From contig JAHBVF010000017.1 in the NCBI GenBank assembly GCA_019637685.1, positions 62,001 to 126,000 on the forward strand: a DNA stretch of 64,000 nucleotides, given 5' to 3'. Below are positions 1 through 12,891 of this stretch, one piece after another. Each line of letters starts with the position of its first letter. Position 1 is the first letter of the stretch. Source of the DNA: Caldilineaceae bacterium (GTDB lineage Bacteria; Chloroflexota; Anaerolineae; Caldilineales; Caldilineaceae). The position numbers and the translations under genes are program-made. The notes beneath the pieces are model-generated. The model saw only the letters and a list, made by a program, of their open reading frames with translations, ran no database searches and was not told the origin of the DNA.

Positions 1-503
1 GCGGCAACCTGAAAGTCTGCTTTGACCAGGCCAAAGCCGCGGTGGCGACGACCGGCGTAAACCAGACGCCCTTCTTGGACGACAACGGCGATGGCGTCTA
101 CAACGACGGGGATGGCAGCGAGGCCGCCAATCGCCACGTCACCCGCTTCTTCAGCTCCCAGCGTCCCACCATCCAGAGCGCCAGCGCCGAGCGCAGTGGC
201 ACAAACGGTCTGCTCAGCGTGACCGTGGCCGATGGGGCTGAGCAGACAGAACTGGTCTGGGCGGCGATCTATGCGCCCTCTTTCCAACCACCGACAGAAG
301 TTACGCTCAATCTGGATGTACCGGTGGTGCGGCTGGAACCGGTGGGTGGGCAGCCGGGCAAATTCAGCGTAAACTACGTCAACGGTTTTCGGGAGAGCGG
401 CGACTATCGCATTATATTTTACGCCCAGGACCGGCTGGGGTTGAATGCGCCGCCGGTTTCCCCCAGTGGCACGCAGGTCTTCCTGCCCCAGATCAAACGA
501 TAG
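1..503 (+). CDS. C-terminal part of secreted C13/caspase-like protein (partial)
   Basis: The reading frame is open from the window edge (codons in frame from base 3), so this is the 3' end of a longer gene; the internal GTG at 42 is not a convincing start. The first ~45 residues contain a Gly/Asp-rich stretch (DDNGDGVYNDGDGSEAANRH) of the type that follows the catalytic core in C13 (legumain-like) peptidase homologues. The rest is a beta-rich region that looks like an Ig-type domain. The protein ends in VFLPQIKR, a tail also seen at the ends of the next four genes. The C13 assignment rests on resemblance recalled from family members; the catalytic part lies outside the window. Confidence 0.6.
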   Translation, partial: GNLKVCFDQAKAAVATTGVNQTPFLDDNGDGVYNDGDGSEAANRHVTRFFSSQRPTIQSASAERSGTNGLLSVTVADGAEQTELVWAAIYAPSFQPPTEVTLNLDVPVVRLEPVGGQPGKFSVNYVNGFRESGDYRIIFYAQDRLGLNAPPVSPSGTQVFLPQIKR

Positions 504-560
504 CCCAAAGTTCAATTTCCGGCTCGATAGAACATTTCAGCAGAAAGTCCTGCCAATCCT

Positions 561-1430
561 ATGAACCCTATTCGTCCTCTCGTCTCTGCCCGACTTCGCC
601 CGCGTTTCGCCACACTTTTGGGCGCGATGCTCGTCCTCTGCTGCCTGTTGACCGCCTTCTTTTTGACGGTGGGCGAAGAGACAGCCCAGGCCGCGCCTGA
701 CGGCGTGCCCGATGGCGTGCCTGCTGTCGCGTCCGATGCCGGGCCAGACCTGACTGTGGAGATCAGCCTGGACCCGCCTGTGCCCGCGGATGGGCAAGAG
801 GTGAATATTACATTTGTTGTACGCAACAAAGGCACGAGTACCACCGGCGGTGGTTTTACTGCTTATTTATATGTAGACCCAGGAGATCGTCCCCCTACGC
901 CCAGCACGCTGGGCCGTCCCTTTGGCTTTGCTGCGCTGGCCGCGGGGGCCTCGGCCCAGGGCGAACGCACCCAGACGATCAGCGGCAAAGGCTGCAATCA
1001 CGTCATTTACGTCTGGGTGGATCGGGACAATCAGATTGCGGAAGACAACGAGACGAACAATCTGATCGCGCTGCCTTTCTGCGTGGGGGTGGAATGCGAG
1101 GTAGACAGCTACGAGAACGACAATCAGTGCAGCGCGGCCAAATGGCTGCTGGAATCCGGAGCCGAGGCCCGTTCTTTCTGCCATCCCACGGATCGCAACC
1201 TGGCCGACGAGGACTGGATTAAGTTTACCGCGCTGACCGAAGTGACCTACACCCTGGCTACATCCAATCTGGGCCAGCACGCTGCGCCCCGCATCGCCCT
1301 GCGCAGCGCGTGTGGCGGTGTGGAGGTTGCCAGCGGGCTGACCACATTGGCCTGGCAGCCGGTGGCGGGCGTCTACTACGCCCGCACGACAACAGCAGCA
1401 GCCAGCAGGGGCCGCTGTCCGCTTCCATAG
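561..1430 (+). CDS. N-terminal part of frameshifted secreted CARDB/PPC/C25-like peptidase
   Basis: Begins with a basic stretch and a hydrophobic signal segment (about residues 18-45). A CARDB-type adhesion domain follows (about 50-170, with DNETNN near its end), then the first PPC (bacterial pre-peptidase C-terminal) beta domain starting at DSYENDNQC. The frame runs into TAG at 1428-1430, but homology continues without a break in the +2 frame from about 1391: YYAR in this frame is followed by NSSSQQGP in the other, matching the YYARITNQ of a later PPC repeat. One base appears to be missing at about 1388-1393. With the next entry this would be one gene (561-4738) of about 1390 residues. Either a real disruption or a sequence error; no slippery heptamer is visible. 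Confidence 0.8.
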   Translation: MNPIRPLVSARLRPRFATLLGAMLVLCCLLTAFFLTVGEETAQAAPDGVPDGVPAVASDAGPDLTVEISLDPPVPADGQEVNITFVVRNKGTSTTGGGFTAYLYVDPGDRPPTPSTLGRPFGFAALAAGASAQGERTQTISGKGCNHVIYVWVDRDNQIAEDNETNNLIALPFCVGVECEVDSYENDNQCSAAKWLLESGAEARSFCHPTDRNLADEDWIKFTALTEVTYTLATSNLGQHAAPRIALRSACGGVEVASGLTTLAWQPVAGVYYARTTTAAASRGRCPLP

Positions 1431-4400
1431 CCGCCCGACTCCTGACCAGCGCCACGGGCCTGACCGACAATTACGAGCCGGATGACACCTGCGCCACCGC
1501 GCGGGAGATTCCAGTGGACGGCACAAAGCAGACCCATCTCTTCCAGGCGCCGGGGGACACGGATTGGCTGCGTTTTACCACCAAAGCCGGGGAGAGTTTT
1601 GCGGTTGTCAGCAGCGCCACGGGAACCGGCGTCAATCCGGTCATCGCGCTCTACAGTTCCTGCAACCAGAGCCGCAGCAGCGCCAGCATTGCCCAGAATG
1701 TGAGCCGGGTGGAAGCCAGCAGCCCCGGCGATCAGGTCTACTACGCCCGCATCACCAACCAGAACCCCAACCGGTTTGGCTCCAGCGCCACCTACGATAT
1801 TCAGGTGCTGGCTTCGTCCTGTGTCAGCGATGATCAGGAAGAGGACGACAGTTTTGCCCAGGCCCGACAGATTGCTGTGGGGGGAGCGGCCAAAACCCAC
1901 AATTTCTGCCCGGCGGGCGATCAGGACTGGGTGAAATTTACAATGACTTCGACCCAAGTCTATGTGCTGCGTACCAGCAATCTGGGCTTTGCCGCGGACA
2001 CTGTCCTCACGCTCTACGACGACAAGGGCAATCAGTTGGCAACCAACGACGACTACGACTACGTGCGGGCCTCCCGTATCGTTTTCGAGCCGTCCACCAG
2101 CGGTGAATATTATGCGATGGTGCGCCACCGTCTGCCCGAAGCGGCTGGCCCCAACACCAACTACGATCTCTCGCTGGAGACGGGCTTTTGCACGCTGGAC
2201 GGCAACGACAGCGGCAACGGGGACAACGGGCCGGGCGATGCCGCGCCCCTGGCACCCAACAGCGGACCGCAGGCGCACAACTTCTGCGCCAACCCCCTTT
2301 CCAGCGCCTTGGGCGATCAGGACTGGCTGCGTTTTCCCGCCATTGCCGGGGGGACTTATCGCATCTCGGCCAGCAATCTGGGGCTGAACAGCGACACTCT
2401 TCTGCGCCTTTATGACCGGGACGGTGTGAGTCTGCTGGGGACCAATGACGACAACGGCGGACGTTCGGCCACAATTGCCTTTACGCCAACTGTTTCCGGG
2501 GACTATTTCGTGCAGGTCACCCAATTCAACTCAGCCGTCTTTGGCCGGGAGACCGACTATAACGTCCAGATTCAGGAGAACATTCCACCCACACCCACGC
2601 CCACGGCGACACCCACGCCCAGCCCCACACCCACGCCCACGCCCCAGCCCACCGTCGACCCGTCCGGGGTGCGCACGCTGATTATTACCAACCGGCAGCA
2701 GATGGAGAATCTCTATGGGGCGGCACGCACGGGCGGGGTGATGGCGAAGCTCTTTGAACTGGCGGATCACCCCCGGGTGGAGGGCGCGGTGCTGCAGGTG
2801 GAAAACAATCCCGGCGTGGCCGCGGCCTATGCCGCTTGGACCGCCAGTCCGACAGCCCTGGCCGATGTCAGTCTGGCCAACGGGGTGGCCGCGGCCATCC
2901 GTGCCAATATTCTGGCCTTTGCTGCCAGCGCGCCCCAATTGGAATATCTGGTGCTGGTGGGGGACGACCGGGTGGTTCCCTTCCGTCGGGTGACCGAGGG
3001 CAATCTGAGCCAGCGTGAAGCAAGCTACGCTACAGATGTGACTACGAACACAACAGTTGCGCTGGCGCTGGCCCAAAATCAGATACTGACGGATGACTAC
3101 TACGCGGACAAAGAACCCAGCTCCTGGAGCGCGGGCAACGAACTCTATCTGCCCGATTATGCCATTGGGCGGCTGATTGAGGAGCCAGAGGAGATTATCG
3201 CCTTCATCGAGAGCTTCCAGGCCGATTCGGTGAACGAAGTCTCGAATGTGCTGGTGACGGGCTATGACTTTGTACAGGACAGCGCGGCGCTGATGAAATT
3301 GCTCTTTGAAAACGACGCCATGACCACCGACGGCACGCTGATAGGCCCCTTCTGGCCGGGCCAGGCGTTGGATCAGAAACAGCTTCAGGCTACCACCCGT
3401 TTTGATATTCAGGCTATCAACGGCCATTCCACCCACATCTCCACGGGCACGCCGGACAACAACGACGTGACTGCCGCGGCCGTCCTGACCGGGACATCGA
3501 ATTTGACGGGTGCGCTGGTCTATGCTGTCGGTTGCCACGCGGGGTTGAACGATCCGGGCCAGCTCGATCTGCCCCAGGCTTTTGTGCGCCGGGGCGCGAA
3601 CTATGTGGGCAACACAGGCTTTGGCTGGGGCGGCGGTGGTATTGTCTACACCGAAGCGCTGATGCGTAACTATACCCGGGAACTGCTGCGGGACAGCCAG
3701 ACGACTATCGGCAGCGCGCTGACCGCGGCCAAGCGGAAATATCGCCAGCAAAGTTTTTCCTTTGGAGCCTATGACGCCAAAAGTTTGATGCAGAGTACTC
3801 TCTATGGGCTGCCGATGGCTGTGGTGACCAGTGGGGGCACCCTCAGCGAGGACAACCCCTTCCCCAGTGCCGAGCAGACTTTCCAGCCGCCTACTTCCTT
3901 TGGGGAGGTGAATATGGGTGGCTTCAGCTATGGGTTGCCCGGTTCCTTTGGGGCTTTTGGCGAGAGCAGCGGCAGCGACGGGCAGGCCTTTGATCTGGAC
4001 AACAATGCCAGCTTCAGCGCGGGCGCGCCTGTGCAGCCCCGCTATTATGCAGATGTAAGCGCGCCCGCCGCGGGCCAGTTGCGGGGGGTTCTCTTCCTGG
4101 GCGGGGTCTATTCGGATGTGGTTAATTTCGATCCCCAGATTGCCCGTGCCCACAACGAGTATGTGAGCGACACCGCGGAGCCGGACTTTGCAGCCAATGG
4201 CTGGTTCCCGGCAGTGCCAGTGGCCCTGCAAAACAGCGCCTCTATCTCCAACACAGGCGATACAGTCGTGCTCTCTCTGGGCCAGTTTGATCCCAACGCC
4301 CAGACCCAACGGCTCTTCGACCAGATGGCGCTGAATACCCTCTACTCTTTCAGTGTAGACCAGACGCCGGCCGATATTGTCTTTGTGGATGGGGTGCTGG

Positions 4401-4738
4401 ACAAGGCCGCGGGCAAGGGCCGGGTGAAGGTGGACGCCAAAGACGCCGGCGGTGTCAGCCGGGTGGTGGTTGCCTTTACAGACAGTTCCCTGGCCGGACC
4501 ATTGACCTGGTACAGCCGTGATTTAACCTTTGATTCCGTCGCCGACATCTGGTCTGGCGAGATTACCGGCACAGTCAAAAGCCGTTTCTTTGTCCAAGTG
4601 GTAGATGTAGGGGGCAATGTGGCTGTGGCCGACAACAAAGGAGCCTATTATGTCCTGAGCGAACCACTCCCCCTGATTTCCGGGCGCAGCCTACCACCCT
4701 CTTCCATTTATCTGCCTTCTGTGGGGGGGAAACCCTAA
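1391..4738 (+). CDS. Main part of frameshifted secreted PPC-repeat C25 (gingipain)-like peptidase
   Basis: Continues the preceding gene after a one-base frame change. It carries three more PPC-type beta domains (each opening with an Asp/Glu-rich segment such as DNYEPDDTC, with DQDW or DTDW in the middle), a Thr-Pro linker at about 2587-2660, and then a caspase-fold domain of the C25 (gingipain-like) type. In that domain INGHSTH places a candidate catalytic His at 3425-3427, and AVGCHAG places a candidate Cys at 3533-3535. A Ser/Gly-rich stretch and beta domains follow, ending in SIYLPSVGG. Likely exported and cell-surface or extracellular. It lies just upstream of three GHG/C paralogues. The annotated start is not a true initiation site, since translation must come from 561. 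Proteolytic activity is inferred only. Confidence 0.82.
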   Translation, partial: NSSSQQGPLSASIAARLLTSATGLTDNYEPDDTCATAREIPVDGTKQTHLFQAPGDTDWLRFTTKAGESFAVVSSATGTGVNPVIALYSSCNQSRSSASIAQNVSRVEASSPGDQVYYARITNQNPNRFGSSATYDIQVLASSCVSDDQEEDDSFAQARQIAVGGAAKTHNFCPAGDQDWVKFTMTSTQVYVLRTSNLGFAADTVLTLYDDKGNQLATNDDYDYVRASRIVFEPSTSGEYYAMVRHRLPEAAGPNTNYDLSLETGFCTLDGNDSGNGDNGPGDAAPLAPNSGPQAHNFCANPLSSALGDQDWLRFPAIAGGTYRISASNLGLNSDTLLRLYDRDGVSLLGTNDDNGGRSATIAFTPTVSGDYFVQVTQFNSAVFGRETDYNVQIQENIPPTPTPTATPTPSPTPTPTPQPTVDPSGVRTLIITNRQQMENLYGAARTGGVMAKLFELADHPRVEGAVLQVENNPGVAAAYAAWTASPTALADVSLANGVAAAIRANILAFAASAPQLEYLVLVGDDRVVPFRRVTEGNLSQREASYATDVTTNTTVALALAQNQILTDDYYADKEPSSWSAGNELYLPDYAIGRLIEEPEEIIAFIESFQADSVNEVSNVLVTGYDFVQDSAALMKLLFENDAMTTDGTLIGPFWPGQALDQKQLQATTRFDIQAINGHSTHISTGTPDNNDVTAAAVLTGTSNLTGALVYAVGCHAGLNDPGQLDLPQAFVRRGANYVGNTGFGWGGGGIVYTEALMRNYTRELLRDSQTTIGSALTAAKRKYRQQSFSFGAYDAKSLMQSTLYGLPMAVVTSGGTLSEDNPFPSAEQTFQPPTSFGEVNMGGFSYGLPGSFGAFGESSGSDGQAFDLDNNASFSAGAPVQPRYYADVSAPAAGQLRGVLFLGGVYSDVVNFDPQIARAHNEYVSDTAEPDFAANGWFPAVPVALQNSASISNTGDTVVLSLGQFDPNAQTQRLFDQMALNTLYSFSVDQTPADIVFVDGVLDKAAGKGRVKVDAKDAGGVSRVVVAFTDSSLAGPLTWYSRDLTFDSVADIWSGEITGTVKSRFFVQVVDVGGNVAVADNKGAYYVLSEPLPLISGRSLPPSSIYLPSVGGKP

Positions 4739-4786
4739 AAAATGGGTGGACAGAATAAGCTTGCCCTATTTGTAAAGGAGACCACA

Positions 4787-7018
4787 ATGTTTAGAAGCAA
4801 ACCTTCTCGAATTCGCGAACTGTTCGGCTTTCTCCTCCTTGTGTCGCTACTGGTTCTGCTGGTTCCAGATATAGCGTTGGCTGATGAGCCAGCCATCGAT
4901 CCGGGCGGTGTCGATGTGCCGGAACAGGCCGCGGTCAGCTACAGCGCGGTCGATCTGGAAGTCGGCGTACATTGGATGGGCGATTATGGCGGCAACGGTG
5001 ATCTGCCCAATTCCCAGAGCAATGGCTACGGTTTCTACAATACCCTGCGCTATCACAACTGGACACTGTTTGGTTTTCCCCGCTGGTGTCAATTCAACGG
5101 CCACGATTGCTATATCTATGGCAACAGTAGCGCCTGGGAAGATGACTATGTGGACAACAATTCCAACTATGTGGACAATGTGGATGTGACCTATTACCAG
5201 GGCCACGGCTGGCCTGGTGGCATCACCCTCAACCCGCCGGATGACCACAATGTGCAATACGGCGAAGTGCAGGGGAAATGGGGTGATGGCGACTGGGAGT
5301 GGGGCTTCTTCAACACATGCAGTATGATGGCCGACTCCAGCCGCTCGTCCTGGTATGGGACAATGAACGGCATGCACGGCATTGCCAGCTTCCGCAACAC
5401 CTCCTACAACACGGCTGGTTTTGGCTCGAAACTGGCAACCTATCTGATCTTTGGCTACAGCTTCAAGGATGCCTGGTTCAAAACCTGTGATGCCAAGCAG
5501 CCCAGCGGCGTTCAGGCCCAGATTATTGTGGAGGACAGCGCTTTCTGGAACGAGAACGCCTATAACCAGATATCTGACAAAAATCACGACGGAACCTATT
5601 GGTGGTGGTGGAAGAGCTGCGGCGCGCCCACCCAGGCCACTGTGACGCCCAATCAGTTGCGGGGCAACTTCCCCTATTACCAGACACCACCCCTGGGCCT
5701 GGCCGAGCAGGAAACCAACTTCAACAACTTGTCCAATAACTTTGGCTTTGGCCGAGGAAAGTCAGGCGAAGTCTGGACCGCGGATATCGACGGCACACGC
5801 ATTATCACCGATACCCAGGGCCGGGAGTTGGAAGTGGACCTGGACACGGGGCTTTTCTACTACTACGATCCAGCCCGCACCTATGGCAATGTGCCCGAAA
5901 CAGCCGCGGCCTGGGGCAACGCGCTGCTCAGCCCAACGGATGCCAAGGATGTGGCGGACAAGTTCTTGCGGGACAACAACTTGCTGCCTGCCGATGCCAG
6001 CTTCAACAGCGTGGCGAATGTGATGTTGGGTACGACCAGCCAGGTGGGCGCGGCGGGAGCAGAATCCACCAGCGAGACGGTTGCTGCTTACGAAGTGATC
6101 TACAGCCGCTATATCACCACAACCGTGCCCACGGGCAGGACAGGTGAAGCCGAGGTTGTGCAGATTCCCATTGACGGCGCTGGGGCCAAAATGAAGGTTT
6201 ATGTGGACCCCAACGCGTCACCCACGGCACGGGTGGCCCGGGCTGGTGTGCCCGGCGCGGTGGTGGGTGCTCAGGGCGGCTGGCGTTCGGTCAACCAGAG
6301 CGCACGCAGCGCGGAGGCTGACATCGCCCTGCTGGACTACAATACCCAAATTCTGCCCCTGTTCAACAATGGCGAACTGGAGCCGCTGGTCACGTATGAG
6401 AATGTGCCATTCCCCAACGCAGACTCCAAAAAGGTGACGAGTTATACTGTGACCGGTTGGGAAGAGAGCACCGGCGAGAGCCAGGATGCTATCTATCCCG
6501 CCTATCGGCTGGATGCTGAATACTCCCAGGTGATGGACTTGGGCAGCGGTATCACAGAGACGGTCGTCCACACAGGCTTCACGTGGATTGCAGCCAACCC
6601 CGCCTATATGCGTCCGCTGGCCCGGATCGAAGCTACGTCGTCCACCAGCCAGAACTATGGACAGGGGAGCAAGGTGACCGCGACCGCGACCGATGCTTCC
6701 CGCACGCTGAGCGATTTGGGCTATACGATGGCTGGCTCCAACCTCAACTTTGCCTTGGGCAGCGGCGACAAGGATTCCTATGTCTATAACTGGTATCTGG
6801 GCAGCGTGGACCAGGGCAAGCCGATCGGCAGCGGCCGCAACCTGGACTACACGCTCACCGGGGATGATGTGGCAGAACTGAAGATTGTCCCTGGCCCGCT
6901 GTTGATTACGCTGCAAGTGGTCGATTCCATCAGCAGCCACACATCCATCAACAGCAACACTGCTTCCTTCTCTATTCAAGCCGTGCCACCCGTTTTCTTG
7001 CCCTATCTATACAACTAA
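4787..7018 (+). CDS. Secreted GHG/Cys caspase-like protein, paralogue 1 (DUF6345-like)
   Basis: Start chosen at ATG 4787 because AAAGGAG lies a few bases upstream and a signal peptide follows directly (FLLLVSLLVLLVPDIALA, about residues 14-31). The N-terminal domain has GNSSAWE, then NYVDNVDVTYYQGHG (His140) and GFFNTCSMM (Cys178). This spacing and pattern resemble the His-Gly...Cys dyad of clan CD (caspase-fold) peptidases. I recall the family as DUF6345, but that label is from memory. A middle alpha/beta region (about 320-510) with YEVIYSRYI and AGAKMKVYVD follows, then a PKD/Ig-like domain, and the chain ends in VFLPYLYN. Fifty bases separate it from the upstream peptidase gene, so co-transcription is likely. 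Substrate unknown. Confidence 0.85.
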   Translation: MFRSKPSRIRELFGFLLLVSLLVLLVPDIALADEPAIDPGGVDVPEQAAVSYSAVDLEVGVHWMGDYGGNGDLPNSQSNGYGFYNTLRYHNWTLFGFPRWCQFNGHDCYIYGNSSAWEDDYVDNNSNYVDNVDVTYYQGHGWPGGITLNPPDDHNVQYGEVQGKWGDGDWEWGFFNTCSMMADSSRSSWYGTMNGMHGIASFRNTSYNTAGFGSKLATYLIFGYSFKDAWFKTCDAKQPSGVQAQIIVEDSAFWNENAYNQISDKNHDGTYWWWWKSCGAPTQATVTPNQLRGNFPYYQTPPLGLAEQETNFNNLSNNFGFGRGKSGEVWTADIDGTRIITDTQGRELEVDLDTGLFYYYDPARTYGNVPETAAAWGNALLSPTDAKDVADKFLRDNNLLPADASFNSVANVMLGTTSQVGAAGAESTSETVAAYEVIYSRYITTTVPTGRTGEAEVVQIPIDGAGAKMKVYVDPNASPTARVARAGVPGAVVGAQGGWRSVNQSARSAEADIALLDYNTQILPLFNNGELEPLVTYENVPFPNADSKKVTSYTVTGWEESTGESQDAIYPAYRLDAEYSQVMDLGSGITETVVHTGFTWIAANPAYMRPLARIEATSSTSQNYGQGSKVTATATDASRTLSDLGYTMAGSNLNFALGSGDKDSYVYNWYLGSVDQGKPIGSGRNLDYTLTGDDVAELKIVPGPLLITLQVVDSISSHTSINSNTASFSIQAVPPVFLPYLYN

Positions 7019-7037
7019 TCCTATGAGCAGTTTGTAC

Positions 7038-7074
7038 CCATCAGCCAGCTCGATGTATCTGGGCTGGCTGATGG
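7038..7074 (+). terminator. Hairpin after paralogue 1
   Basis: A 12-bp perfect stem (ccatcagccagc and its complement) with a 13-nt loop lies 20 bases after the stop codon. It is followed by purines rather than a T-run, so it may be an attenuator or RNA-stabilising hairpin rather than a classic terminator. Confidence 0.45.
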
Positions 7075-7138
7075 AAAGAGTTGTGTTATCGTGTGTTTCC
7101 CTTTTCGTAAGGTTCCCCTCTGGGAGGATGGGCCTGTT

Positions 7139-9430
7139 ATGAGCAACAACAAAAGATGGCGATTCGTGTTTCTGAACTTTCTAGTGATCTGTTCTCTGCT
7201 GTTGACACCCGGATTGGTTCTGGCCGATGAGCCAGACCAGCAGCCAGACGCGCCCGGCACAGCAACTGGCGTCAAACCGACCGCGGATGATGGCAGCCTG
7301 GAATTCGGCGTCTGGTGGGCCGAAGATTATCCGCCTGCCGGTGCGGGCGGATCAGACCTGCCCGCTACCCGTCCCGACGCGCTGGGCTTGCGCAATCAAC
7401 TCACCTCGACCTGTCGCTTCCGGCTTTTTGGCATCTGCATCTGGAACTGGCCGACACCCTCTTGGACTGCCCGCTATGTCTTTGGCAATAGCAGCGCCTG
7501 GGAGCAGGACTGGAAGCGGGCCGCGGCAGGTGGCACAGAAAATTCGTATGTGGATCGTGTCGATCTGGCCTATTGGGCTGGCCACGGCTCATCCAGCGGC
7601 ATTCTCTTTGGTGTGGGGGGCAACACCCACGACGATGCCTGGCTGACCTATAACGACGCGGCCGGCGCGTGGGGTGATGGAGACTTGGACTGGGTGGCTC
7701 TGGCTGCCTGCAATGTCCTGGACGATGCCCACTTGGGGGATTGGGCCAACACAATGAACGGTCTGCGTCTGATTATGGGTTTCAAGACGACAATGGCCGA
7801 TGTGCCCCACGGCGAATGGTTCGGCCAATACATCCGGGAAGGTTATTCCATGGGCCAGGCTTGGTTCAAAGCTGCGGACAAACTCCAGCCCCAGAACAAG
7901 ATTGCCCGTGTGCTGGCCGAAGAGTCGTGGATGTATAACGACAAATGGTATAACCACGCCTCCACCGATTATCTGGACAACCAGTATTGGTATTGGACCC
8001 ACCGGGTGGGCAGCGAACCCGCCCGCTTTGTGGATGCCAGCGACATCACAGAAATGCCGGTCTATGCTGTGCAGCCCTTGGGATTGGCCGAAGCCAATAG
8101 CCGGTGGGATGCCCTTGGCTCGGCCACGGGTGTCACTACCACTGACTTCATTACGGTGACTACGATTGCCTCTCTCAGCCCGACCCGATCCGCGCTGGAG
8201 GTGGGGAATATCCGTACCAGCCAGAACGGTGAACTGGAGATGGATGAGAACGCCGGCCTCTTTGCCTATAACAATCTGGGCGAACTGTGGGTTGCGCCCG
8301 GTGCCGAATCGGCCAACACCGAAGCCGTTCAGTCGATTTCGGCCACCGATGCCATCACCATTGCCGAGAAGTTCCTGAAAGACAATGGCTTTCTGCCCGC
8401 TGATGCCCAATACTTTGAAGTGGCTGCGGACACATTGACCCAGGCCACCGACGCAGGCAATGCGCGCTCCGCGCAGGGGATGCAGATCGTCAGCGAACAG
8501 ACAATGGTCAATCAGGTCATCTATTCCCGTATTGTCACCGGCACAGTCACCAGCAAGAGCCGGGGCGTGGCCGAAACCGTGGAATTTTCTGTGATGGGTC
8601 CCGGCTCCAAGCTGAAGGTCTATGTGGATACAGCCGTGCCTGCGGGCCTAAGCGCGGCCGCGTTGAGCCAGGAAGCAGTCATCGGCGCGTTGGGCGGCTA
8701 TCGATCTGTACAACAGCCGGCTGTCCGCGGGACGAACAAACTTCTGACCATTCCCATTTTGCCCGCTGCGACAATGGCAAAGATTCTGGACCTGAACGCG
8801 CAAAAACAGCAGGAACTGGAGTCCATGTTCTCGCTCAGCTACGTGCCTCTGGGCAATATCGACAGCCGCACTATCACCAGCAGCACGCTGGCCTATTGGG
8901 AAGGCCCCATGGGTGCCAGCCAGGATCAGTTGATTCCTGTTCACGCCATCGATGTGCGCAATGTGCTGACAGACTCCACTGTCGTCAGCTACACTGCCTA
9001 CATCCCTGCCAACCCAACTTTCATGCCACCCTTGGCCAAGATCGAGTCTGCCACCACTGGCACAGGCAGCCAGATTCCGGCAGAAGTCAGCGTCGGTATG
9101 ACATTGACCCTGTCCGCTGTGGACGCCACCAAAACCCTGGCCGCGGCAGGCTATGATGCCGCCCTCGACTTTGTTGCCGGCAGCGGCGATTACCTGTACA
9201 ACTGGTATGTGGATGAGGTGTCGGCAGAAACGAAAGTGGGCGTTGGACGCACAGCGACCTTTGCTGTCGCCATTCCCAGCGAGGATGTCAAGGCTGACAA
9301 CCGGGCGGTCCAGCAGACGCTTATCCTGGAAGTTGTGGATTCTAACTCCAACCGGGAACCCAACAAGAGCTATAGCCGCATGACAATCAATGTGATTCCG
9401 CCACTTTTCCTGCCCAATGTGATCCGCTAG
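7139..9430 (+). CDS. Secreted GHG/Cys caspase-like protein, paralogue 2 (DUF6345-like)
   Basis: ATG 7139 is preferred over the upstream in-frame start at 7091 because GGGAGG precedes it and a signal peptide starts at once (FLVICSLLLTPGLVLA). It has the same layout as its neighbours: GNSSAWEQD, SYVDRVDLAYWAGHG (candidate His149), VALAACNVL (candidate Cys191), a middle domain with VIYSRIV and PGSKLKVYVD, a C-terminal PKD-like domain with YLYNWYVDE, and the tail LFLPNVIR. It probably arose by tandem duplication with the flanking paralogues. The fold and peptidase activity are inferred from the motif pattern, not shown. Confidence 0.85.
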   Translation: MSNNKRWRFVFLNFLVICSLLLTPGLVLADEPDQQPDAPGTATGVKPTADDGSLEFGVWWAEDYPPAGAGGSDLPATRPDALGLRNQLTSTCRFRLFGICIWNWPTPSWTARYVFGNSSAWEQDWKRAAAGGTENSYVDRVDLAYWAGHGSSSGILFGVGGNTHDDAWLTYNDAAGAWGDGDLDWVALAACNVLDDAHLGDWANTMNGLRLIMGFKTTMADVPHGEWFGQYIREGYSMGQAWFKAADKLQPQNKIARVLAEESWMYNDKWYNHASTDYLDNQYWYWTHRVGSEPARFVDASDITEMPVYAVQPLGLAEANSRWDALGSATGVTTTDFITVTTIASLSPTRSALEVGNIRTSQNGELEMDENAGLFAYNNLGELWVAPGAESANTEAVQSISATDAITIAEKFLKDNGFLPADAQYFEVAADTLTQATDAGNARSAQGMQIVSEQTMVNQVIYSRIVTGTVTSKSRGVAETVEFSVMGPGSKLKVYVDTAVPAGLSAAALSQEAVIGALGGYRSVQQPAVRGTNKLLTIPILPAATMAKILDLNAQKQQELESMFSLSYVPLGNIDSRTITSSTLAYWEGPMGASQDQLIPVHAIDVRNVLTDSTVVSYTAYIPANPTFMPPLAKIESATTGTGSQIPAEVSVGMTLTLSAVDATKTLAAAGYDAALDFVAGSGDYLYNWYVDEVSAETKVGVGRTATFAVAIPSEDVKADNRAVQQTLILEVVDSNSNREPNKSYSRMTINVIPPLFLPNVIR

Positions 9431-9471
9431 TCCGTGTCTTAGCTTTCTCTTGTCCGCGTATGTTTCTCTCT

Positions 9472-9503
9472 GCGTACGGGCACGATGCGTCGTGCCCGTA
9501 CGC
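9472..9503 (+). terminator. Strong hairpin between paralogues 2 and 3
   Basis: A perfect 14-bp stem (gcgtacgggcacga and its complement) with a 4-nt loop, followed by a pyrimidine-rich stretch. It sits 41 bases after the stop of the upstream gene, so the third paralogue may have its own promoter or reduced readthrough. Confidence 0.55.
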
Positions 9504-9580
9504 GCTCTCTCTCGCCCTTTCTTTCATCTCATTTCAACCAACCCTTTTGATCCACTCTTTTTCATCCACAGGAAACGTCT

Positions 9581-11758
9581 ATGCATCTCACTTCTTTTGT
9601 CCACAAAAAACCTGTATATCTGCTTTTGGCAATGTGTTTTGCGCTCCTTCTGTCTAGTATGCTCGCCATCCCTGCCTGGGCTGGTGAGGAAGACGAACAG
9701 CCCGACGGCATGGGCGAAACCCAGTCGGCCAGTGTCGACGCGCCCCAGGCCACCCAGGACGACGGCGGCGATTGGGAGCTGGGCATCCACGGCTCGGCGG
9801 GCAATCTGAAATCGGCCACGGCTGCCGAGCGTGCCGGAATGAACTTCTGGCTCTCTCCCGCCAGCAACTGGGTCACCCGCTACATCTTTGACGAATCATC
9901 CGCCTGGGAGCAGGACTTCAAACGCAACGACCTGGGCGGAACCAATGGCTCGTACATCGACGCGGTCGATCTGCAATTCTACGTGGGCCACGGTTCGCCC
10001 AGTGGTTTCACCTTTGACAACGCCAACCACGACGACGGCACACTCACCTCAGCCGATTGCTATCGGGCTTGGGGTGACAACGACAACGAATGGCTGGCCC
10101 TTACCTCCTGCCAGGTTTTGGGCAATTCCAATCTGTCGGGCTGGGCATCCTGTATGTATGGCCAGCATCTGATTATGGGTTTTGTGACCAATGCCAGCGC
10201 CTACAACAATATGTTCAGCACCCAGGCCTATCACTTTGGCCGCTATATCCGGCAGAACTACTCCATGCCCCAAGCCTGGTACAAAGCCTGTGACGTGGCC
10301 CAGCGGGGACGCACCACCCGCACGATCATCAATGAACTGGCCTGCCTGAATGACAAGCCCAATTCCGGCCAGGTCTGTGCTGATTCCTTTGACACGGATT
10401 GGTGGTATCAGACCCATTCCTGCGGCACGGAAACAGCCATCTCTGTGCCCAGCGAGGACATCCGCACACTGCCAGTGTACCGCATGGCTCCCTACGGCCT
10501 CGATGAGGCCAAAGCAGATTTCAGCAACCTGGGCAATGTGTTCGGCATTCCAGTCACCGCCACACTCACCGCTCGTGTGCAGGATCAGATTGCCAGCGAC
10601 TATTTCACGGGCACGGCGGGCGCTCTTTCGTTGGAACTGGACAAAGGCAGCGGTATCTTCAGCTTCTCCGATCTGGACCAGCTATGGACCGCGACCCAGG
10701 CAGAGCAGGCCATGGCCGTCAACGCCGCGTCGGCTGATTATATCGACAGCGATGATGCCCGCACGATCGCTGACAATTTTCTGCGCACAAACAATCTGAA
10801 CGGTACTGGTGCCACCTTCTACGAAGTGATCTCTGACACCATTTCCAGCCAGATTGACACTGCCGATCCCGTCAGGGCCGCGCAACTGGTGGCCGAGGGC
10901 GAACAGACGCCCCTGCTCTGGCAGGTCATCTACTCCCGCCGTTTGACAGCCACTGTTGTCAGCGCAGCCGGGCTATCGGAAGAAATTCAATTCTCGGTTG
11001 TTGGGCCAGGGGCCAAGCAGAAGGTCTATGTGCCGGTGACAGCCGGCGTGGGCGCGGCCAGCATCCTGGAGACCAAACCCGTGGGTGTGCTGGGCGGTTG
11101 GCGGGAAGTTGCCCCTGCCGTCAACGCGGCCACGGGGGATGCCTTGTCGGTTGCCATTCTGACCGCCGATCAGGTGAGGGAACTCTACATGGCCCTGCCC
11201 GAAGATGTGACCCTGAACGACGTGCCCCTGGATGTGTCGAAACGGGAGATCATCAGCCACACAATCGCTTATTGGGAAGAGGCCAGCGGCGTGAGCCAGG
11301 GCCAACTAATCCCGGTCTATGAGTTGAAAGTCAATATGACCGAGCGGGAAAGCCAGGCTGTGGTCGAGGAATTCGTCTATGTGCCGGCCAGCGAACTCTA
11401 TATGCGTCCTCTGGCGCGCATTGTCGGAACCCCCACCCAGCCGGTGATCGCGGGCACGGCCATAACACTGACCGCGGCCGATGCCACCCAAACCCTCCGC
11501 ACCCTCAAACTGGCCGATTTCGACATTGCGCTGGGAACCGGTGAATATTCCTACGAGTGGTTCCTGGACGGGACAAAGATCGGCAACGGCCAGGTGTTGA
11601 AAGATTATGTCGTTCCCCTGAGCACAGATCAGCGGGACATTGCGTTGACCTTCGAAGTGCGGGTGACCGATACTTCCAGCCCGAACCAATCTGCCTCCAC
11701 CGACCGCGTCACGCTGGCTGGCAGCCGGGGCATCTATCTGCCCACTGTCAACCGCTAA
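9581..11758 (+). CDS. Secreted GHG/Cys caspase-like protein, paralogue 3 (DUF6345-like)
   Basis: The ATG at 9581 is preceded by AGGAAA and followed by a signal peptide (YLLLAMCFALLLSSMLAIPAWA). The core keeps ESSAWEQDF, SYIDAVDLQFYVGHG (candidate His137) and WLALTSCQVL (candidate Cys177). The middle domain has VIYSRRL and PGAKQKVYVP, and the C-terminal domain has GEYSYEWFLDG. The chain ends in IYLPTVNR. It is slightly shorter than its two paralogues and has fewer aromatic residues near the N-terminus. Last gene of the secreted cluster; a strong terminator follows. Confidence 0.85.
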   Translation: MHLTSFVHKKPVYLLLAMCFALLLSSMLAIPAWAGEEDEQPDGMGETQSASVDAPQATQDDGGDWELGIHGSAGNLKSATAAERAGMNFWLSPASNWVTRYIFDESSAWEQDFKRNDLGGTNGSYIDAVDLQFYVGHGSPSGFTFDNANHDDGTLTSADCYRAWGDNDNEWLALTSCQVLGNSNLSGWASCMYGQHLIMGFVTNASAYNNMFSTQAYHFGRYIRQNYSMPQAWYKACDVAQRGRTTRTIINELACLNDKPNSGQVCADSFDTDWWYQTHSCGTETAISVPSEDIRTLPVYRMAPYGLDEAKADFSNLGNVFGIPVTATLTARVQDQIASDYFTGTAGALSLELDKGSGIFSFSDLDQLWTATQAEQAMAVNAASADYIDSDDARTIADNFLRTNNLNGTGATFYEVISDTISSQIDTADPVRAAQLVAEGEQTPLLWQVIYSRRLTATVVSAAGLSEEIQFSVVGPGAKQKVYVPVTAGVGAASILETKPVGVLGGWREVAPAVNAATGDALSVAILTADQVRELYMALPEDVTLNDVPLDVSKREIISHTIAYWEEASGVSQGQLIPVYELKVNMTERESQAVVEEFVYVPASELYMRPLARIVGTPTQPVIAGTAITLTAADATQTLRTLKLADFDIALGTGEYSYEWFLDGTKIGNGQVLKDYVVPLSTDQRDIALTFEVRVTDTSSPNQSASTDRVTLAGSRGIYLPTVNR

Positions 11759-11771
11759 CCTTTCTGTTCGC

Positions 11772-11814
11772 GGGGCGGCACTGATTGCAGTTCGCAATCA
11801 GTGCCGCCCCTTTT
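11772..11814 (+). terminator. Rho-independent terminator closing the secreted peptidase cluster
   Basis: A perfect 17-bp G+C-rich stem starting ggggcggcactgattgc with a 5-nt loop, followed directly by TTTT, 13 bases after the stop of the last paralogue. Confidence 0.9.
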
Positions 11815-12027: not shown

Positions 12028-12891
12028 ATGAACACGCGAATGAAGAAGTACAGCGGTATCGTCGGTGTGGCTCTGGTGGGTGTACTCACTTTCAGCGCCA
12101 TCAGCTTCGCCCAGACCTCCGACACATCCACCAGCAGCGCGCCGGTTGTCGAGCGTATCCAGCAGGGCTTTCAGAATGGCTTCGAGCGCGGCGGCCCTGG
12201 CGGGCGGGGGGGTCCCGGTGGTCCTGGCGAAATGCGCGGCGAGCGCCACGCCGAGGTGGCCGAAGCCCTGGGAATGACTGTCGAAGAGTTGCAGGCGGCC
12301 ATCCAAAACGGTCAGACAATTGAGGAGATCGCGGCGGAGAAAGGCGTGGATCTGCAAGCCTTTGCGCTGGAACAGGCCACGGAGCATCTGGCCCAGGCCG
12401 TGACCGATGGCAAATTGACCCAGGAAGAGGCCGACGCTAAACTGGCCGAAATCCAGACCGCGATTGAGAACGGTGAATTTCCGGGCCGACACGGCTTTGG
12501 CCCCGGCAACCACGGACCCCGTGGCGAGCGTAACGGCGCTTTGGCCGAGGCTCTGGGGATGACCCAGGAAGAATTGCGGGCGGCTGTCCAGAACGGCCAG
12601 ACCATCGAAGAGATCGCAGCCGAAAAGGGCGTGGATTTGGAAGCCTTCCAGGCCGAGCAACAGGCTGAACATCTGGCCCAGGCCCAGGAGCGGCTGGCCC
12701 AGGCCGTGGCCGACGGCAAGCTGACCCAGGAAGAGGCCGACGCCAAACTGGCCGAAATCCAGGCAGCGATTGAGAACGGCGAACGCCCGGAATTTGGCGG
12801 ACGCCGTGGCCCCGGTGGTCAACGCGGCCCGCGGGGTGGAGAGAACAGCGTGCCCTTCAACGGCAACGGTACAACCAATCCTAATCTGTAA
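12028..12891 (+). CDS. Secreted protein with two-copy helical repeat (DUF2680-like)
   Basis: 287 residues with a clear signal peptide (GIVGVALVGVLTFSAISFAQ), then a Gly/Arg-rich stretch and two copies of a ~75-residue helical unit (about 75-150 and 165-255). Each copy contains ALGMT.EEL, QNGQTIEEIAAEKGVDL, EHLAQA, DGKLTQEEADAKLAEIQ and AIENGE. The second copy has an extra QERLAQA insertion. A second Gly/Arg/Pro-rich tail ends the protein. DGKLTQEEADA resembles the DUF2680/YckD family; function unknown. ACAGGAGAAACAG upstream supplies the ribosome site. Flanked by terminators on both sides, so probably monocistronic. Confidence 0.85.
   Translation: MNTRMKKYSGIVGVALVGVLTFSAISFAQTSDTSTSSAPVVERIQQGFQNGFERGGPGGRGGPGGPGEMRGERHAEVAEALGMTVEELQAAIQNGQTIEEIAAEKGVDLQAFALEQATEHLAQAVTDGKLTQEEADAKLAEIQTAIENGEFPGRHGFGPGNHGPRGERNGALAEALGMTQEELRAAVQNGQTIEEIAAEKGVDLEAFQAEQQAEHLAQAQERLAQAVADGKLTQEEADAKLAEIQAAIENGERPEFGGRRGPGGQRGPRGGENSVPFNGNGTTNPNL

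Follow-up and report, generated by a model that had tools for sequence, protein, structure and literature searches.

A conserved Caldilineaceae gene module encodes secreted-looking C13, C25 and DUF6345 proteins, with DUF6345 predicted to adopt the caspase fold

The window analysed here is a stretch of 64,000 nucleotides (G000:C9:62001-126000; contig JAHBVF010000017.1) of a 6.3 Mb Chloroflexota genome (Caldilineaceae), which begins within a cluster of genes for proteins of the clan-CD (caspase-fold) type, all on the + strand. The original prediction had described five such genes: a C13-like C-terminus, a gingipain-like (C25) gene and three paralogues with a GHG...C pattern. All of these parts were present, but the count fell short by one, since a further C13 gene upstream brings the number of clan-CD-type proteins to six. 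The first gene of the cluster encodes a fibre-like protein and lies approximately 6-7 kb 5' of the window; the first C13 gene follows (an 896-amino-acid frame, 5' of the second C13 gene), and the complete series in this genome is fibre-like, C13, C13, C25 and three genes of family DUF6345. Its features are as follows.

3..503, + strand: C-terminal part of the second C13 (legumain-family) gene; full gene G000:C9:58448-62503 (L005:8448-12500)
477..503, + strand: C13 C-terminal tail VFLPQIKR plus stop codon
561..1430, + strand: open reading frame with the N-terminal part of the C25 gene (signal peptide, CARDB, start of the PPC-rich part)
1355..4738 (open reading frame 1310-4738), + strand: remainder of the C25 gene (PPC domains, Pro/Thr-rich linker, gingipain-family catalytic domain, beta domains)
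1397..1412, + strand: frameshift splitting the C25 gene, frame +3 to frame +2
3425-3427 (His) and 3533-3535 (Cys), + strand: C25 catalytic codons
4742..7018, + strand: DUF6345 paralogue 1 (His 5204-5206, Cys 5318-5320; domain approximately 4952-5644; tail VFLPYLYN)
7139..9430, + strand: DUF6345 paralogue 2 (His 7583-7585, Cys 7709-7711; domain modelled 7295-8032; tail LFLPNVIR)
9581..11758, + strand: DUF6345 paralogue 3 (His 9989-9991, Cys 10109-10111; domain approximately 9761-10447; tail IYLPTVNR)
477-503, 6992-7018, 9404-9430 and 11732-11758, + strand: sites of the tail [LIV][FY]LPx[VIL]xR
11772..11810, + strand: terminator-like hairpin (17 pairs, 12 G-C), directly after paralogue 3
L005:4677-5957, L006:12207-13568, L113:3-1226, L114:3586-5103 and L115:1173-2558: fibre-like gene, leading the module

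The three paralogues matched Pfam PF19872/DUF6345 with E values of 1e-31 to 1e-39 (110-136 bits; cut-off 26.9), and paralogues 2 and 3 showed 37% and 31% identity, respectively, to paralogue 1. The true start of paralogue 1 may be the ATG at 4787, which has a better ribosome site (AAAGGAG). Residue positions given for the three proteins by the original prediction (His140/Cys178, His149/Cys191 and His137/Cys177) agreed with the codons when counted, where needed, from internal ATGs. A Pfam scan of the three paralogues with E values up to 1 reported PF19872 alone, with no profile match to C11, C13, C14 or C25, and paralogue 2 had no match when its sequence was searched against the PDB; at the level of sequence, DUF6345 is a separate family. 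Both His and Cys were invariant in 12 of 12 homologues, from Chloroflexota, Phycisphaerae and one unplaced bacterium, as were Glu3, Glu70, Asp87, Asp90, Asp114, Trp126, Gly127, Asp130, Trp133, Trp150, Gly156, Trp190 and Gln198. GHG occurred in every DUF6345 paralogue of the window and of the related clusters, and SHC replaced it in one Planctomycetota member (L035). DUF6345 is also present in Methanosarcina acetivorans.

By structure prediction, the DUF6345 domain of paralogue 2 was modelled with confidence (mean predicted local distance difference test score, pLDDT, 79.5; predicted template modelling score 0.83). Its top Foldseek match was a CHAT caspase-fold protease (E 7.6e-6). A caspase fold had been proposed beforehand in refutable form, and in a VIA comparison of the domain all 50 of the top 50 aligned PDB entries belonged to clan CD (Z 10.9-13.1, 166-186 residues, root-mean-square deviation 2.9-4.0), best Z scores of 7-8 being typical of models without a clear match. 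The model of full-length paralogue 2 was poorer (mean pLDDT 60; mostly 60-85 in the DUF6345 domain, poor in region 300-630). Its best structural matches were also in clan CD: SAVED-CHAT (Z 13.9), gingipain K (11.2), separase (10.4) and caspases and C11 (approximately 10). Matches of its middle region to YycI had Z 7.8, a value that unrelated folds also reach, and serve only as a lead.

In clan CD, the catalytic His comes first, closing strand beta3, and the Cys second, closing beta4 (PMC4357240), and a Gly precedes the catalytic His (PMC12445089). In the DUF6345 domain model, His97 and Cys139 (domain numbering) were placed directly after strands beta3 and beta4 (residues 91-95 and 133-137). 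The original prediction was to be refuted by His and Cys lying apart in the model; judged by these strand positions, it passed. The predicted core fold, the order of His and Cys at beta3 and beta4 and the Gly before His are thus those of the clan, and DUF6345 shares them with CHAT, C14 caspases, C13 legumains, C25 gingipains, C50 separases and C11 clostripains, to which its sequence identity is only approximately 8-16%. Eight families were listed for clan CD in March 2025, DUF6345 not among them (PMC12445089). As judged from the predicted model, DUF6345 is an unrecognised caspase-fold family and a new branch of clan CD, its newness being measured against that list. Pfam PF19872 is a name without a function, and the caspase fold and dyad were assigned in this analysis; a literature search on DUF6345 found no paper.

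In Caldilineaceae, the window paralogues included, the DUF6345 domain is followed by the poorly modelled region and then by a PKD/Ig-like domain. In other Chloroflexota (L008, L010-L024), a region homologous to this partner region precedes the domain (a very small search set gave full-sequence E values of 1.4e-8 and higher, and 0.2 for the best control). Since the partner region lies after the domain here and before it there, the two modules have exchanged places during evolution. The partner region is kept in either order and might, at a guess, serve as an inhibitor or in folding.

The C13-like C-terminus at 3-503 proved to be that of a true C13 gene. The full gene is a 1,351-amino-acid open frame whose start lies before the window; it scored 26.9 bits with Pfam C13 PF01650 (curated cut-off 22.8) and carries the His and Cys motifs DHG ... 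EACVSGS, placing it in family C13. The C13 proteins of the cluster bear FN3, PPC and Ig-like domains. They have the catalytic motifs common to C13 enzymes such as the glycosylphosphatidylinositol (GPI) transamidase Gpi8 and plant asparaginyl ligases, here DHG and EACxSGS, but differ from these in being bacterial, predicted to be extracellular and joined to FN3, PPC and Ig domains. C13 enzymes cleave after Asn/Asp (PMC12445089). Elsewhere in the same genus, C13-like domains were matched eight times within approximately 45 kb (G425:C410:10696-55292); the open frames that hold them reach 4,000 amino acids.

Assignment of the gingipain-like gene to family C25 was borne out by its trimmed catalytic region, which scored 48.6 bits with PF01364 (cut-off 23); a Pfam scan of the full-length open reading frame gave no C25 match, and a sequence search of the PDB with the C25 alignment gave no match. 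Its His and Cys were invariant in 19 of 19 sequences. The frame homologous to an intact relative is +3 as far as approximately 1412 and +2 from approximately 1355 onwards, and in all five syntenic relatives C25 is one open frame of 1,386-1,488 amino acids. Gingipains cleave after Arg/Lys and have a C-terminal signal common to other exported proteins. Like the gingipains of Porphyromonas gingivalis, the protein has a C25 domain that is, here by prediction, secreted. Unlike them, it carries CARDB and PPC domains, belongs to a three-family module and ends in an 8-residue tail motif (protein end IYLPSVGGKP) rather than a beta-sandwich domain of the type IX secretion system (T9SS).

A search for the same gene order in other Chloroflexota showed that it recurs in five other Caldilineaceae genomes, as fibre-like, C13 (one or two), C25 and DUF6345 (one to three) on one strand. 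G441 and G442 have fibre-like, C13, C13, C25, DUF6345, one other open reading frame and DUF6345; G425 and G430 have fibre-like, C13, C25 and DUF6345; and G421 has C13, C25 and DUF6345 within the stretch read, the side of the leading gene lying beyond it. At the level of loci, the full order was found at L112, L113, L114, L115 and in the window genome, and L116 has C13-C25-DUF6345. Fragments at contig ends were consistent with this order (C25 then DUF6345 in G422; C13 then C25 in G424, G426 and G429). DUF6345 was present in 11 of 46 genomes of the family; of these 11, C13 occurred in 8 and C25 in 9, as compared with 3 and 3 of the other 35 (Fisher p 8e-5 for C13 and 9e-6 for C25, in a test that ignores relatedness). 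Because the order recurs in other genomes and the families co-occur across the 46, the cluster is not a chance grouping. It represents a gene module that is conserved in Caldilineaceae and probably transcribed as one unit. The earlier idea of a tandem expansion of different clan-CD proteins holds within C13 and within DUF6345, where tandem duplication is seen, but otherwise gives way to a conserved module of three distinct families. No description of three caspase-clan families as one conserved secreted module was found in the literature.

DUF6345 tandem arrays (L031, L032) were also seen in Caldilineaceae metagenome-assembled genomes, and a fourth DUF6345 gene of the window genome (contig C3) adjoins a fibre-like gene and a C13 gene. 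Directly 5' of this fourth gene, L006:3-9101 encodes a secreted-looking beta-helix-type protein of >3,000 amino acids with several LP-type tail motifs near its end.

The fibre-like gene came first at all five module loci readable on that side. Its secreted-looking product has a conserved first part (YQGRLxDPxTGxP ... GLFSTLLGDTTAL), an LDGxDSxxFAxxxHxH stretch and a variable end, and three of four members gave weak matches to phage tail-fibre families. That a fibre-like gene stands beside every C13 gene was considered and rejected, a stand-alone C13 on contig C16 having none.

All 27 enzymes checked (six clusters and the C3 pair) kept the His/Cys pair, and all 27 ended in a common tail, [LIV or similar][FY]LP plus a few residues, most often with a final Arg or Lys. 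A strict DNA pattern, [FY]LPx[VIL]xR-stop, had 47 sites in the genome and 9 in a reversed control; 43 of the 47 ended open frames of at least 90 codons, and in 40 of these 43 position -8, which the pattern does not fix, was L, I or V. A looser pattern did not discriminate (712 matches; control, 755). Nearly 40 proteins of the genome beyond the cluster bear the tail; they are otherwise unrelated (RCC1 repeats, FG-GAP, subtilase, a metallophosphatase with a carbohydrate module and others), and a crude test detected a signal-peptide-like stretch in 15 of 20 complete tail bearers. Some lineages of Chloroflexota are enriched in the tail, and others lack it. One complete genome, G427, had 57 matches (control, 12) and no C13, C25 or DUF6345 hit. 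With so many and such varied bearers, also where the three enzyme families gave no hit, the tail is a general feature of the secreted proteins of these bacteria, and since relatives lacking the cluster have it as well, the cluster is a client of the tail and not its maker. On the evidence of G427, the module enzymes were rejected as general tail processors; the tail was likewise rejected as a property of DUF6345, as the DUF6345 proteins of family f26 lack it.

The tail resembles LPXTG, PEP-CTERM and GlyGly-CTERM in being a short motif that ends many unrelated secreted proteins, but differs from them in forming the very C-terminus, with no hydrophobic membrane segment after it. The membrane segment and basic residues that follow the motif in LPXTG and PEP-CTERM signals were therefore absent. 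Nor was a shared T9SS C-terminal domain (a beta-sandwich of approximately 80 residues) found, as only approximately 8 residues are common, after many unrelated domains and linkers. NCBIfam sorting-signal models did not match any of the eight tails scanned, and a literature search on C-terminal sorting signals in Chloroflexota found nothing relevant. We tentatively propose, from sequence patterns, that the tail might be the signal for a so far undescribed system of export or surface anchoring, present in some of the Chloroflexota, with the module enzymes as its clients and DUF6345 as a new clan-CD peptidase family.

From the computed fold (by prediction), conserved dyad, C13 and C25 family identity, gene order and shared tail, we infer that the module supplies a fibre-like protein and a complementary set of secreted caspase-clan cysteine peptidases (C13, C25 and DUF6345), and that these peptidases would act jointly at the cell surface (probability roughly 60%). 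The coordinated extracellular proteolysis or surface-processing system suggested by the original prediction is likewise a plausible proposal. Each enzyme would be exported, as it has a signal-peptide-like start, adhesive beta domains and the same short tail; given that start and tail, all should reach the same extracellular place. There, C13, C25 and DUF6345 would cleave proteins after different residues (by family precedent Asn/Asp for C13 and Arg/Lys for C25), and as a set they would act on external food protein or on surface proteins of the cell itself. The steady retention of one or two members per family speaks for roles that complement each other and against simple duplication. Members of the Caldilineaceae have often been recorded in wastewater flocs, where extracellular proteolysis matters. 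Several points weigh against this interpretation. A conserved His/Cys pair and a modelled fold do not amount to proof of proteolysis, and the activity is predicted. For joint action, gene order and co-occurrence, the latter tested without regard to relatedness, are the whole of the evidence; DUF6345 occurs without C13 or C25 hits in G444, and in other Chloroflexota it lies away from both. Finally, the C25 gene is broken in the window assembly by a frameshift that is either an assembly error or a real mutation.

The fibre-like gene is what keeps alive the alternative that the enzymes are not food proteases but act on surface proteins of the same cell, processing or joining them, the fibre-like protein being one example. 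The fibre-like gene leads every readable module locus; some of its products contain tail-fibre-like repeats, and a variable end follows the conserved first part. Precedents exist in other organisms (the C13 GPI transamidase and the C25 protein PorU), transpeptidases are known within clan CD, with GPI transamidase (8imy) among the structural matches of DUF6345 (Z 11.3), and the retention of one or two genes per family across genera would also fit. Against such maturation, the fibre-like proteins lack the common C-terminal tail, no cleavage site was identified, and the tail-rich G427 shows that the enzymes are not needed for tailed proteins generally. Feeding on external protein was given more weight, and surface maturation is considered rather unlikely. 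That the DUF6345 proteins are non-catalytic caspase-fold scaffolds or receptors which aid C13 and C25, in the manner of pseudo-caspases, appears improbable: their long beta-rich C-terminal regions suggest binding and the L035 member carries SHC where the others have GHG, but pseudo-enzymes usually lose the His and Cys that are invariant here in all 12 homologues and in every cluster DUF6345. If the GHG...C motif had arisen by chance in a secreted fold of another kind, this would explain why the three paralogues matched no named peptidase family; the confident domain model, its best matches in clan CD and an invariant dyad anchored at the strands make this a very remote prospect.

What is new lies in DUF6345 as a caspase-clan family, in its module with C13 and C25 and in the uncharacterised C-terminal tail. 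A Pfam family without an assigned function thereby gains a predicted fold and likely function, and three caspase-clan families were found conserved together as one module, predicted to be secreted. Direct tests are opened of DUF6345 activity, of the division of labour between C13, C25 and DUF6345, and of the role of the tail on dozens of secreted-looking Chloroflexota proteins.

At the 3' end of the cluster, the stem at 11772-11810 was by far the longest found, although terminator-like hits as a class were not above shuffled expectation; this hairpin is the probable end of the transcription unit. Downstream of it, positions 12028-12891 of the window encode a 287-amino-acid protein with repeated AEALGM.VEELQAAIQNGQTIEEIAAEKGVDL units.

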